Notes under the pieces: model-generated
Told to the model about the DNA's origin: nothing
What the model saw: the letters and a program-made list of their open reading frames with translations, nothing else
The model's database searches: none
Program-made: the position numbers and the translations under genes
Shown: positions 25,366 to 50,885 of the stretch, piece by piece
How the letters are laid out: each line of letters begins with the position of its first letter
How positions within the stretch are numbered: the stretch's first letter is position 1
Assembly (NCBI GenBank): GCA_018004935.1
Contig: JAGNBF010000050.1
Span: 1-53,215, forward strand
DNA from: Chloroflexota bacterium
GTDB taxonomy: Bacteria > Chloroflexota > Anaerolineae > Promineifilales > Promineifilaceae
Length of the DNA: 53,215 bases
Direction of reading: 5' to 3'

Positions 25366-25447
25366 CCCACCCCTGACCCCTCCCCCAGGGGCGAGGAACT
25401 TTTTAGAGGGCGTTTTTTGCGGGCATTCGCCCGCAAAAAACGCCCTC
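25366..25447 (-). repeat. Composite repeat: variable-stem hairpin plus G-rich module (copy 4, inverted)
   Basis: The C-rich module CCCCACCCCTGACCCCTCCC leads into hairpin 25406-25447. Its arms, GAGGGCGTTTTTTGCGGGC and complement, are perfectly paired with loop ATTC. Order and loop match copies 1-3 on the other strand; the arm sequence does not. Confidence 0.85.
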
Positions 25448-25464
25448 AATCCGCACGACGGTCA

Positions 25465-25800
25465 ATTGGGCGTAGCACAGCCTTTCCAGGCTGTGCGTTC
25501 TCTATGGAGACGGAGCCAGGCTTCGGCAGGCATTGGGCGTAGCACAGCCTTTCCAGGCTGTACGTTCTCTATGGAGACGGATCTGGGCTTCGGCAGGCAT
25601 TGGGCGTAGCACAGCCTTTCCAGGCTGTGCGTTCTCTATGGAGACGGAGCCGGGCTTCGGCAGGCATTGGGCGTAGCACAGCCTTTCCAGGCTGTGCGTT
25701 CTCTATGGAGACGGATCTGGGCTTCGGCAGGCATTGGGCGTAGCACAGCCTTTCCAGGCTGTGCGTTCTCTATGGAGACGGAGCCGGGCTTCGGCAGGCT
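25465..25800. repeat. Tandem array, five 67-bp units
   Basis: Units begin ATTGGGCGTAGCACAGCC at 25465, 25532, 25599, 25666 and 25733, each containing the hairpin CACAGCCTTTCCAGGCTGTG. A variable spot alternates GAGCC(A/G)GG, GATCTGGG, GAGCCGGG, GATCTGGG, GAGCCGGG. This points to duplication of a 134-bp dimer. No spacers differ, so it is not a CRISPR. Single copies of the word occur at 1720 and 19820. A CAGCCTGAAAGGCTG hairpin follows at about 25817. Confidence 0.95.
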
Positions 25801-25892
25801 CAGCTTTCGAGGGTGAACAGCCTGAAAGGCTGTTCTACGGGTTGGGCCATTTTTCGAGCGGGATCCTGGATGGTTGAAATCATTGCAAAATA

Positions 25893-26266: not shown

Positions 26267-27634
26267 ATGAGCGCAAACAACGACCCCACCTTTAATCTGA
26301 AAGTTGTTATTCGAGAAACTGGCCTGAAACCTGATACGTTACGTGCCTGGGAGCGGCGTTATGGTTTGCCGGATCCTCAACGCACGGAAGGGGGTCATCG
26401 CCTGTATACACGGCGGGACATAGATATGCTGAAATGGCTGATGGCCCGTCAAAATGAAGGTGTCAGTATCAGCCGGGCCGTTAGTTTGTGGCAAGGTTTG
26501 GTTGCCGAAGGGAAGGATCCTTTACAAGAACATATTACTTATGACACAACCGTTGAAGAAGAGCGGTATGCTCCGGTAGCCTTTATTGGCAGTACTATGA
26601 CGCAACTGCGCGAGCAATGGGTTAATGCCTGTTTGGCCTATGATGAAAAACAGGCCCGGGAGATTCTTAATCAGGCTTTTGCCCTTTATTCCCCAGAAAG
26701 TGTCTGTTTTGCTATTCTTCAACATGGGTTGGCCGAGATTGGCGACGGGTGGTTTCGGGGAAATATAACAGTTCAGCAAGAGCATTTTGCCTCGGCCCTG
26801 GCGATCCAACGGTTGCAAGCGCTTTTACTGGCATCCCCTCCGCCAACTCGTCCTGAGCGCATTCTGGTGGGTTGTTCCCCAGAGGATGATCACACCTTCA
26901 GCCCATTGCTCATTTGCCTGATGTTGCGTCGTTATGGGTGGGATGCCTTGTATCTGGGAGCCAATGTTCCTGTTGTTCAAATGGAGCGCACGATTGAAAC
27001 AACGCACCCGGATCTGGTGGTGATGTCGGCGCAGTTACTGAACGCGGCCGCGAACTTGTTGGAAATGGCCCAACTGTTACAACAACGACGGATTCCTCTG
27101 GCTTATGGCGGCCGCGTCTTCAACTATATTCCCGCAATTCGCCAGCGTATCCCCGGTCATTTTCTCGGTGAAGAGATGGAAGAAATTCCCCATGTTGTGA
27201 GCCGTTTGCTCAATAACCGGCCCCCAATGCCCGTCGTTACCCCCGTTAGCCTGGAGTATGAACAGGCTCTTTCACAATTTACCCGTTACCAACCCGTAAC
27301 TGAAGCCCGCCTCTGGCAAGCCGCCAGTGAGATCGGAATGCCGCATACGGAACTGACACGAGCCAACCAGAACATGGCTCAGAATATCAAGTCTGCCCTT
27401 AAATTAGGCGATTTAAACTTTATCAGTAGCGACCTGGCATGGCTTTCCGAACTTTTGTTTAACTATCATTTGCCGCATCACTGGTTGCACCATTACCTTG
27501 AAGTCTACAGTCAGGCTATTTATCAGGAGATAAATGGTAATGGGGGCCCGATTATGAAGTGGCTGGGCAAGTTTTTAGCGCAGGAAAGTATGACCAGGAA
27601 TACCTATACACCTCATGAGAATGATTTGGGGTAG
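26267..27634 (+). CDS. MerR/CarH-family B12-binding transcriptional regulator
   Basis: 455 aa, ATG with AAGGA upstream. MerR-type winged helix at 10-60 (IRETGLKPDTLRAWERRYGLPDPQRTEGGHRLY). A helical cobalamin-capping domain contains W-X9-E-H (Trp162, Glu172, His173), the signature of CarH/LitR photoreceptors that cover adenosylcobalamin. A Rossmann B12 domain (197-320) has CSPEDDHTFSP with His209 as the candidate lower ligand. In the dark such proteins form DNA-bound tetramers; light breaks the Co-C bond and releases DNA. A long extra C-terminal part (330-455) is unassigned. Downstream CrtI-like and photolyase genes on the same strand are classic light-induced targets. The residue after Trp162 is Phe, unlike the His of Thermus CarH, so the light-state ligand may differ. 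Confidence 0.9.
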   Translation: MSANNDPTFNLKVVIRETGLKPDTLRAWERRYGLPDPQRTEGGHRLYTRRDIDMLKWLMARQNEGVSISRAVSLWQGLVAEGKDPLQEHITYDTTVEEERYAPVAFIGSTMTQLREQWVNACLAYDEKQAREILNQAFALYSPESVCFAILQHGLAEIGDGWFRGNITVQQEHFASALAIQRLQALLLASPPPTRPERILVGCSPEDDHTFSPLLICLMLRRYGWDALYLGANVPVVQMERTIETTHPDLVVMSAQLLNAAANLLEMAQLLQQRRIPLAYGGRVFNYIPAIRQRIPGHFLGEEMEEIPHVVSRLLNNRPPMPVVTPVSLEYEQALSQFTRYQPVTEARLWQAASEIGMPHTELTRANQNMAQNIKSALKLGDLNFISSDLAWLSELLFNYHLPHHWLHHYLEVYSQAIYQEINGNGGPIMKWLGKFLAQESMTRNTYTPHENDLG

Positions 27635-27636
27635 GG

Positions 27637-27740
27637 GCTGGCCTTGTGCCTGCCCCGCAGGTGAGAGCCATTACAAGGGTTGCCTTATCGCCTGTCGCCC
27701 CCTCACTTTGTTGCCGCGTCGGGTATAAAAATAACCCAAT
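27637..27740. repeat. Degenerate pieces of two interspersed repeats
   Basis: GGGGCTGGCCTTGTGCCTGC (part of the 111-bp family) is followed by TCGCCTGTCGCCCCCTCACT, a relative of the block at 50080-50110. They fill most of the 133-bp gap before the oxidoreductase gene, which lacks a strong ribosome site. Confidence 0.6.
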
Positions 27741-30731: not shown

Positions 30732-30807
30732 GAATTGATAACTCTGCTGTTCTGGGGTGGCGCGGTCAGGAGACTGGCTCGAGCAACCCCGTAAGCCTCC
30801 TCTCTTT

Positions 30808-30918
30808 GGTTCTTTGGGAATTTAGGGGGTTGACACCAGATGTAGGGGCTGGCCTTGTGCCTGCCCCGTGTGGGGCAACCACAAGAGTTGCCCGTACCCC
30901 ACAAAACCCCAAAGAACC
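30808..30918 (+). mobile_element. 111-bp MITE-like element, family 2, copy 1
   Basis: Terminal inverted repeats are GGTTCTTTGGG / CCCCAAAGAACC. The body contains a GGCCTTGTGCCTGCCC hairpin and GGGGCAACCACAAG. The same length and sequence recur at 50298-50408 and, diverged, 50773-50885. No clean target duplication is visible here. It precedes the start of the next gene by 10 bp, so that gene's leader lies in the element. Confidence 0.85.
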
Positions 30919-30927
30919 ATTTCTTTT

Positions 30928-31986
30928 ATGAAAACAGAACCTGGTTTGATTATCCTGTTTGGCTCTGGAGAGGCATCTCCTAGCGGCCGCGAGGTGTGGG
31001 AATGGTTATTTGCCCAGATGGGTACGCGGCCGCAGGTCGCCATTGTGGAGACACCCGCTGGCTTCCAACCTAATTCGGCTCAGGTTGCCCGGCGAATCGG
31101 AGACTTTCTCGACCATCACCTGCAAAACTATGAGCCGCACATTGATATTGTGCCTGCTCGCCAACTAAATACACCCTTCAGCCCCGATAACCCAGACATC
31201 CTGACCCCCATGCTGACCGCCAATGTGTTTTTTCTTGGCCCCGGTAGCCCCAGTTATGCCGCACGCCAATTAGAAGGCTCACTGGCCTGGGACATCCTGG
31301 CCGTGCGCCACCAGATGGGAGCGCATGTGGTATTAGCCAGTTCGGCTGTGGTGGCTGTAGGATCCTTTGCTTTGCCGGTGTATGAAATATACAAAGTAGG
31401 CGAAGCGTTACATTGGCACACCGGGCTGGATTTTCTCATTCCTTACGGCCTGCAACCGACATTTATTCCCCATTGGAATAATAACGAAGGGGGTGAGGAG
31501 TTAGATACGCGTTATTGTTTTATGGGGCAGGCGCGTTTTGATCAGCTACGGGAGATGTTGCCGGGTACGGCGACGATTGTCGGAATTGATGAGCATACGG
31601 CTCTGATGATGGGGTTGGTGGAGGGGCAATGCTGGGTTCGCGGCCGCGGTCAGATTACCATTTTACGTGGGTCTAACAGCGAAATTTACCCCGCCGGTTC
31701 TACTTTTCCCCTGGAAAAACTGGGCCTCTGCCACATCCCGGCGGAATATCTGGATATCCGGCCAGAGGCGTGGCAGATGATTCAAGAAGCCGAGCAGGAA
31801 GAAGTGGCCGAGGCGGCAGTGCCCCCGATGGTGCAAAAACTGGTAGAAGAACGGGTGAGAGCACGCGGCCGCAAAGAATGGGCCATCGCTGACCAACTCC
31901 GTACCCAAATCGAGGCCTTGGGATGGGCCGTCAAAGACACACCCCATGGCCCGGAACTAGAACGACTTACCTCACTCAGTTGGTGA
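30928..31986 (+). CDS. Peptidase S51/amidotransferase-like protein with CysRS-like C-terminal tail
   Basis: 352 aa from ATG 30928. The open frame upstream is the mobile repeat and is not used. 'GLIILFGSGEASPSGREVWEWL' opens an alpha/beta domain. FFLGPGSPSYAARQL and the nucleophile-elbow-like VVLASSAVVAVGS (Ser138/139) resemble dipeptidase E/cyanophycinase-type S51 proteins. His residues at LHWHTG and IPHWNN could complete a catalytic set. The C-terminal 40 residues (LVEERVRARGRKEWAIADQLRTQIEALGWAVKDTPHGPEL) read like the end domain of cysteinyl-tRNA synthetase, an odd fusion. A hydrolase acting on peptides or small molecules is plausible; the substrate is unknown. Four palindrome sites. It overlaps the convergent M28 gene by 15 bp. 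Confidence 0.7.
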   Translation: MKTEPGLIILFGSGEASPSGREVWEWLFAQMGTRPQVAIVETPAGFQPNSAQVARRIGDFLDHHLQNYEPHIDIVPARQLNTPFSPDNPDILTPMLTANVFFLGPGSPSYAARQLEGSLAWDILAVRHQMGAHVVLASSAVVAVGSFALPVYEIYKVGEALHWHTGLDFLIPYGLQPTFIPHWNNNEGGEELDTRYCFMGQARFDQLREMLPGTATIVGIDEHTALMMGLVEGQCWVRGRGQITILRGSNSEIYPAGSTFPLEKLGLCHIPAEYLDIRPEAWQMIQEAEQEEVAEAAVPPMVQKLVEERVRARGRKEWAIADQLRTQIEALGWAVKDTPHGPELERLTSLSW

Positions 31987-38629: not shown

Positions 38630-38916
38630 GCCAGTAACGTTAAACGTACCCCCCGTCTGGCTTCTAACCATTCTCCCCCTCATTCCTCACCCCTTTTACC
38701 TCAGCCCTCAGTTTTGCGGCCTTTGGGAAATCCGTTTGTTTATTAATCCGTTGATGTAATCCAGTGGTTGCGAGGCAAAGGTGGCACGGTCAGGAGACCG
38801 GCCACAGTGAGGCTTCTTATTGAACAGGAACACCTCGCCACAGCTAGGGGTGGGGAAGGGTGGACACGGGTAAAAGAATGGGAATGCGGCCGCAGGGCGA
38901 GGGCTTGATCAGCAAG
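38630..38916. other. Spacer with a palindrome and GGTCAGGAGACCGG word
   Basis: GGTCAGGAGACCGGCCACAG at about 38789 is shared with 15790, 30765 and 50712. One GCGGCCGC lies at 38886. No gene is supported. Confidence 0.5.
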
Positions 38917-49885: not shown

Positions 49886-50297
49886 TGAGGAAAGTATACT
49901 CGATTTTAAAAGGTGTTGGGGAGTATTGTAGCAAGCGTTCAATTCCCTGAGAAAATGGACTTTCCGAAGGTTTCTGTGTAGATGTTGACCCATGGTACGA
50001 ACGTTCGGAAGGCTGAATGGTTATGTATTGTAATAACTTTTGGTATCTATACTGTCAAAGGGCATAATCTGACATTTTTTCGCCCTGTCGCCGTCTCACT
50101 TTATCGTCGTGTTGGGTTTATCCAAGGCCACCCCCACCCCTAACCCCACCGCCAGGGGCGGGGTTAGGGGTGGGGGTCGCTTCGGATAAACAGATCATGA
50201 GTCCGAGCACCAATACATGGCCCCATTCCCACCATGATGATCAAGCGTGTGGCGATGATTAAATGATCTAAACCGCCACTCTCTGGGAAAATGTCAG

Positions 50298-50408
50298 GGT
50301 TCTTTGGGAATTCAGGGGGTTGACACCAGAGGTAGGGGCTGGCCTTGTGCCTGCCCTGTGTGGGGCAACCACAAGGGTTGCCCGTACCCCACAAAACCCC
50401 AAAGAACC
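50298..50408 (+). mobile_element. 111-bp MITE-like element, family 2, copy 2, nested insertion
   Basis: Same length and sequence as 30808-30918. Flanked by perfect 8-bp direct repeats AATGTCAG (50290-50297 and 50409-50416). The right flank continues as ATTATGCTCTTTGGCAATATATA, the block found before the AAA+ gene at 1958-1980. The element therefore jumped into an older repeat. Confidence 0.93.
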
Positions 50409-50772
50409 AATGTCAGATTATGCTCTTTGGCAATATATACCCGTCCTCGAGGGCTAAGTTTGTCGAAGTCCGGCTCCGCCTTCGACAAGCTCCGGCAGAG
50501 CCACATCCCCACCTGTAGAGTTACTGACTTTTTACTGAATATGACCAGATACATGACCTGAGGATGACTTCCGGCACATCCGGGCATTACCTGTATTTCG
50601 GTAGGATGAGAGTAGATGAAGGGCAGAGACACTTTTCTGAGTGTGGTTTTTCGGGGGCACGCTCCGAAAAACCACATCCTTAGTCATCGTTCAAAAATAA
50701 CCTGGGTGGCGCGGTCAGGCGACCGGCCACAGCAAATTGCTAAGGGGTGTGTTTCAAATGAGTTGAATAATG

Positions 50773-50885
50773 AGTCTTGGGGGGAATTCATGGGGTTGAC
50801 AGCAGATGTACGGGCAGGCCTTGTGCCTGCCCCGTGCGGGGCAACCACAAGGGTTGCCCGTACCCCACGAAACCCCAAAGAACTT
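50773..50885 (+). repeat. Diverged copy 3 of the family-2 element
   Basis: The right end ACCCCAAAGAAC and the core GGCCTTGTGCCTGCCC are well kept. The left end is worn (GTCTTGGGGGGAATTCATGG). Confidence 0.8.

Follow-up and report, generated by a model that had tools for sequence, protein, structure and literature searches.

Nested Elements at 50290–50416

The DNA analyzed here, termed the window, is the whole contig C219 (53,215 nucleotides) of a Chloroflexota assembly that comprises 7,977,649 bases in 229 contigs and is 96.57% complete. Direct reading of its forward strand revealed a 111-bp element at 50298–50408, GGTTCTTTGGG...CCCAAAGAACC, which has 11-bp perfect terminal inverted repeats and belongs to a repeat family termed family 2. 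It is preceded by the 8-bp sequence AATGTCAG (50290–50297) and followed by a second copy of the same sequence (50409–50416), with 8/8 bp identical; ATTATGCTCTTTGGCAATATA comes right after the second copy. Inside the element, on the same strand, a hairpin core, GTAGGGGC...GCCCGTAC (50332–50387), consists of an inverted hairpin pair that resembles a REP doublet, with GTAG and GTAC as its outer ends.

When the insert and one duplication were taken out, the sequence CCACTCTCTGGGAAAATGTCAGATTATGCTCTTTGGCAATATA was restored. The insertion lies in a MITE-like element of another family, family 1 (50048–50437), which measures 390 bp with the insert and 271 bp without the insert and one duplication. The left duplication occupies positions 22–29 of the host terminus. 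The block TCAGATTATGCCC... was identified as the right terminus of the abundant family-1 element, the usual left end of which is TATACTTACCACGGTCATAAAGTGACATTTTG. In the window host, the right-type terminus (type B, TATACTGCCAAAGGGCATAATCTGACATTTT) stands on both sides (B/B). At the loci L048, L056 and L060, right ends without an insertion were found in the same left context, CCACTCTCTGGGAAAATGTCAG. Since the 8-bp duplication is exact and empty host ends exist elsewhere, the nested insertion of a 111-bp element at 50290–50416, which had been proposed in an earlier note on this DNA, was confirmed.

The same note had equated the restored block with one in front of the gene of an AAA+ protein and with an inverted one near 50070. 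A similar block, i.e., a B-type terminus of family 1, does stand at 1955–1979 on the forward strand, where it immediately precedes the ATG (1981) of the AAA+ gene, but it reads AGTATCAGATTATGCCCTTTGG, with 3 mismatches. The inverted block near 50070 is likewise present, but it is not an independent copy: since the right-type terminus stands at both sides of the host, this block represents the opposite terminus of the host itself.

The B-type end TCAGATTATGCCCTTTGGCA had 185 matches in the genome at ≤3 mismatches, with 0 matches for the control. Family-1 elements show imperfect inverted termini (A/B) in pairs 275–470 bp apart, as is characteristic of MITEs, and their flanks show a possible TA and nothing beyond. 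Their interiors contain a hairpin slot before AGTTCCCCGCC (1723–1900 and 50100–50190 in the window, and L031–L060), the stem of which is wholly different among copies and still palindromic. Of 137 places of this slot, 92 had an arm with a length of 10 bp or more, with 58 different arm-start 12-mers, some of them only register-shifted.

Family 2 across the Genome

With the 127-bp stretch as query, at least 41 matches were listed in the genome, with 40 of 683 candidates scored. The hairpin core had 482 genome matches (243 + 239, at ≤3 mismatches), and the reversed control had 0. Complete elements, defined as two ends with ≤3 mismatches each and 45–180 bp apart, were counted in a non-random sample of about 1.25 Mb (1,253,215 bases), which consisted of 11 long contigs, including the window, picked partly for holding matches. 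Eighty two-ended copies were obtained, mostly of 109–112 and 123–124 bp; 39 more ends without a listed partner stand outside this count.

A perfect 8-bp duplication flanked 29 of the 80 two-ended copies, and 41 copies had a duplication with at least 7/8 matching bases. When one mismatch was allowed, duplications of 4, 5, 6, 7, 9, 10 and 11 bp were found in 9, 5, 3, 2, 1, 0 and 0 of the 80 copies, respectively. Since length 8 was observed in 41/80 copies as compared to 0–9/80 at the other lengths, chance was excluded as an explanation of the duplications. Family 2 combines short length, a lack of coding capacity, terminal inverted repeats and a target duplication of fixed length, i.e., the features of a MITE.

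The copies strongly keep away from predicted ORFs: 71 of 85 sampled copies were mostly noncoding, as compared to about 19% of the sample as a whole. Relative to genes, 45 of these copies lie upstream of one, 23 upstream of two and 12 downstream of both neighbors, while 4 lie within an ORF and 1 could not be placed.

The window holds two further copies on the forward strand. The copy at 30808–30918 is 96% identical to that at 50298–50408, and its flanks, CTCTCTTT and ATTTCTTT, show a duplication of merely 6/8. The copy at 50774–50884, which the earlier note does not list, is diverged (86%), and its duplication is not clear by eye. A dispersed repeat, GGGTGGCGCGGTCAGGAGACCGGCCACAGCAA, was noticed at 50704–50735, 30755–30786 and 38779–38810; elsewhere, family-2 elements enter this repeat at fixed sites.

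Relationship of the Insert's Ends to ISL3 Elements

In ISL3 elements (DDE_Tnp_ISL3) of related genomes (L214–L217), both ends matched the MITE ends, each on its own side, with GGGGTTGACA on one side and GGGGTAC on the other. Elements around the ISL3 transposase genes in relatives measured 1,251–1,397 bp. At ≤4 mismatches, 14 of 30 ISL3 loci (81,668 bases) carried the end pattern, with 22 occurrences in total. Among the controls, 30 Y1-transposase loci (85,763 bases) gave no occurrence and 80 unrelated loci (724,649 bases) a single one. The protein encoded at L217 matched the NCBIfam ISL3 model with an E-value of 2.2e-30, but under the curated cut-off. Because of the correspondence between its ends and those of ISL3-family insertion sequences from relatives, family 2 was classified as an ISL3-type MITE.

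The ISL3 transposase (PF01610) was found in 17 of 59 genomes and had 0 matches in the own assembly (G000; 229 contigs, 96.57% complete), and a protein probe for this transposase, run without a positive control, also returned nothing from the own assembly. Around complete ISL3 copies, 8-bp duplications were seen in 0 of 5 cases (L211 and L214–L217, from draft genomes), which may reflect the misjoining of multi-copy elements in such assemblies. IS1595 (PF12762) was rejected as a partner, as none was found in the own genome; the positive control for this search came from Haloferax volcanii only.

Matches to family 2 were found in 24 of 59 genomes; some of these covered only the ends and others only the core, and in relatives the same outer ends enclose other interiors. 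In 20 regions fetched from relatives, 12 of 17 two-ended copies had an 8-bp duplication. Autonomous long versions of family 2 were not among the two-ended matches in these regions, all of which were MITE-sized (99–177 bp).

An ISMac21-related MITE from Methanosarcina acetivorans is given in an excerpt of the literature (PMC3852290) with 179 bp, 6 copies, IR 22 and DR 7. Like such ISL3-family MITEs, family 2 is non-autonomous and short and has ISL3-like ends and short direct target repeats. Unlike the ISMac21-related MITE, it measures about 111 bp, occurs in hundreds of copies and has an 8-bp duplication; moreover, its hairpin-doublet core is common to another shell, and a partner element is absent from the assembly. 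A literature search for ISL3 MITEs in Chloroflexota and for hairpin-cargo MITEs turned up no paper.

Target Sites within Family-1 Termini

ISL3 elements generally favor A+T-rich targets and give 8-bp repeats. In a target matrix derived from the other family-2 insertions, the left half was A-rich and the right half T-rich. This matrix is symmetric by construction since both strands were counted; a one-strand tally of 41 duplications showed the same trend, with A at position 1 in 28/41 and T at position 8 in 21/41.

For the tally of insertions within family-1 termini, duplicates were merged (141 to 121), and L002 was added by eye. All seven in-terminus insertions with a good duplication (≥7/8) were located at positions 21–32, i.e., within a 12-bp stretch. 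At the outer edge of family-1 termini, three more elements overlap the terminus or directly adjoin it; one of these has a 6/8 duplication, and the other two have none. In the sample, the hot stretch had received 4 insertions. Uniform insertion into noncoding DNA would predict 0.08 (P 1.8e-6, or 8.8e-5 when the finding itself is excluded), and the target matrix predicts 1.15 (P 0.03, or 0.11 with the same exclusion). Since the excess is weak after correction by the matrix, base preference explains most of the hotspot.

An active choice, in which the transposase recognizes the family-1 ends themselves (or the cruciform formed by them) beyond their A/T content, is rather unlikely. The confinement of 7/7 insertions to 12 bp and the 4 insertions observed against 1.15 expected would be in line with such a choice, but the P-value is just 0.03 and rises to 0.11 without the finding itself. 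In addition, other repeats are entered at fixed sites too, such as ACTTTTGA in L004, L007, L014 and L016, and empty sites matched repeats (≥3 spanning matches) in 15/41 cases versus 28/163 for shifted controls, which is only a modest excess. Base preference is thus the preferred explanation of the hotspot, and the insertions show that the termini of one MITE offer reproducible target sites to another, very abundant bacterial MITE.

The Family-2 Copy Upstream of the Gene at 30928

A family-2 copy had been described in the earlier note as standing 10 bp before an S51-like gene and forming its leader. The copy at 30808–30918 is indeed directly upstream, but the gap to the ATG at 30928 is 9 bp, and its role as leader or promoter found no support. 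The gene itself is real, since 362 encoded relatives were confirmed. Of 10 listed homologues, 6 have an ATG start at the equivalent position, and the alignment of the other 4 begins at residue 5 or 6. On this basis, the coding start was assigned to 30928, which leaves the MITE outside the conserved coding sequence. For one window protein, the closest relatives came from Caldilineae/Anaerolineae bins, with 56% identity at best, which pointed to Chloroflexota as the origin of the genome. An identity of the gene product as S51 peptidase was rejected: Pfam (E ≤0.001) and NCBIfam (E ≤0.01) gave no match, and the best relevant PDB match, a cyanophycinase-like exopeptidase, was not significant (E 0.088).

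It is improbable that the 30808 element has been kept because the 30928 gene obtains its promoter or RNA leader from it. Besides its position 9 bp ahead of the ATG, a strong RNA fold (z = -4.87) would fit such a function, but every copy tested folds strongly, and a sigma-70-like promoter was not found inside the element. Of the 85 sampled copies, only 5 have a predicted start within 40 bp, and 12 are situated downstream of both neighbors, so that a placement like that at 30808 is incidental.

Independence and Relative Age of the Insertions

The junction CCAATGTCAGATTATGCYC was found without mismatch at three places only, namely on C124, on C187 and in the window. The same 8 bases have been entered in other host copies at the former two (L281 at C124:34482 and L002 at C187:48555). 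The insert in the window is 92.0% identical to that of L002 and 91.9% identical to that of L281, as compared to 96.4% identity to its nearest copies, L004 and 30808. The L281 insert is inverted relative to its host, and the window host is unlike the L002 and L281 hosts left of the insertion site. Since the identities are lower than 96.4% and L281 has the opposite orientation, the three same-site insertions are best read as independent hotspot insertions. The earlier note had regarded composites found elsewhere as one unit as an argument against nesting; for the same reasons, L002 and L281 do not refute it. A single origin of the nested pair, followed by its spread as one block to C187, C124 and the window, is very unlikely. 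The use of one 8-bp site at three places and an apparent case of composite copying at another repeat (L012 and L013, with common long flanks and a ACTTCACG variant inside the insert) would favor it, but the above differences in insert identity, insert orientation and host sequence count against it.

With regard to age, the earlier note had proposed that family 1 is older and family 2 younger. At this locus, the exact duplication and the empty host ends firmly indicate an older host and a younger insert, so that the insertion fixes the order of two repeat layers here. Genome-wide, an older age of one whole family is only suggested. The absence of family-1 ends from 80 family-2 elements (0 cases) favors family 1 being older, as do the nearer neighbors within family 2 (nearest-neighbor identity of 92.0–92.8% versus 85.3–87.5% for family 1; 30 copies each). 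The last 31 bp, which are more uniform in family 1 (88%) than in family 2 (78–82%), count against it.

Nested elements in prokaryotes are known as 'Russian dolls', as stated in an excerpt of PMC3852290. The arrangement at 50290–50416, one element inside another, does not differ from these in kind; its local detail consists in the repeated hits at the same bases of another MITE's terminus.

Proposed Origin of the Nested Insertion

The 111-bp element is very probably an ISL3-type MITE that was moved in trans into an older family-1 MITE, with independent hits at an A-run/T-run site. This explanation accounts for the observed ends, duplication, empty sites, abundance and match to ISL3 ends as well as for the independence of the three insertions judged from sequence and orientation. 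An ISL3 transposase provided in trans would recognize both ends of the non-autonomous element and move it, and joining at an 8-bp stagger would duplicate AATGTCAG within the right terminus of the older family-1 MITE, in its inner part. The target would be an A-run followed by a T-run. Since family-1 ends contain the conserved motif TGACATTTT, which conforms to this rule, the same spot would be hit repeatedly and independently. The transposase would have been lost from the genome, or would not have been assembled, and the target preference would be its own. In this way, the local finding ties a very abundant bacterial MITE to ISL3 elements.

The Hairpin Core in Different Shells

Among 111 core places in the sample, 77 belonged to a listed two-ended shell; for 20 others, one or two diverged ends were located nearby, and for 14 there were none. 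Since some core places are without a complete listed ISL3-type shell, the 482 core matches are not all family-2 elements. A second shell, with the ends CTATAG...TTAAGAWAAWGATTTTGG, was found by pattern at 6 distinct places (12 rows, as each place was found by two patterns), 5 with the family-2 core and 1 with another hairpin. The core stands in the CTATAG...GATTTTGG shell at C50:11937, C74:59273, C83:83662, C196:72408 and C207:95778 of the own genome, and the other hairpin is enclosed by this shell at C207:92031. The core at C50:11937 was 94.7% identical to the window core, and the shells were no more alike than shuffled sequence. For C83:83662, a fallback procedure was used to excise the core, and the value of 78.5% obtained for it is hence unreliable. 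In the window, 27630–27655 may be a remnant of the CTATAG...GATTTTGG shell.

In relatives, the core was also found without ISL3 ends, including in other families of the class (e.g., L143, L150 and L160). Naked core copies with GTAG...CTAC were present in relatives such as L143 and L146, and ISL3-type shells in relatives enclose other hairpins.

GTAG repeats have been reported in Chloroflexi in an excerpt of PMC3733652. As far as excerpts of PMC3116915 and PMC3733652 describe REPINs and GTAG-tagged REP doublets, the core shares with them the inverted hairpin pair and the GTAG (or GTAC) outer ends, with GTAG at one end and GTAC at the other. Unlike REPINs, the core of the own genome lies mostly inside a transposon shell with its own duplications, and it was found at 0 of 31 loci of Y1 transposases (RAYT), for which 30 of the matches in relatives were taken as loci. 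RAYT was rejected as mobilizer of the core on this basis and in view of a single weak Y1 match in the own genome.

We regard the chances as roughly even that MITEs of this Chloroflexota lineage are modular, with a transposon-derived shell and an exchangeable hairpin cargo. One doublet occurs in at least two unrelated shells, and one shell occurs with different hairpins in different genomes. In our reading, this suggests an exchange of cargo between shells, as chance convergence is unlikely at 94.7% identity; the same picture would result from gene conversion or from a free doublet that had entered two elements. If the modular reading is true, the nested locus would be three layers deep, with a hairpin doublet in an ISL3 shell in a family-1 MITE, and REP-like hairpins may spread without a transposase of their own as cargo of other transposons' ends.

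Other Repeats in the Window

In the window, the palindrome GCGGCCGC was counted 90 times, as compared to 5.0 expected from 4-mers; in 1.25 Mb, it was counted 1800 times, as compared to 92 expected. It is comparable to the HIP1 octamer of cyanobacteria, which has a different sequence. Finally, a tandem array with a 67-bp unit was found at 25398–25866; the GTAGCACAGCC...GGCTGTGC hairpin of this unit is also present at 1723.
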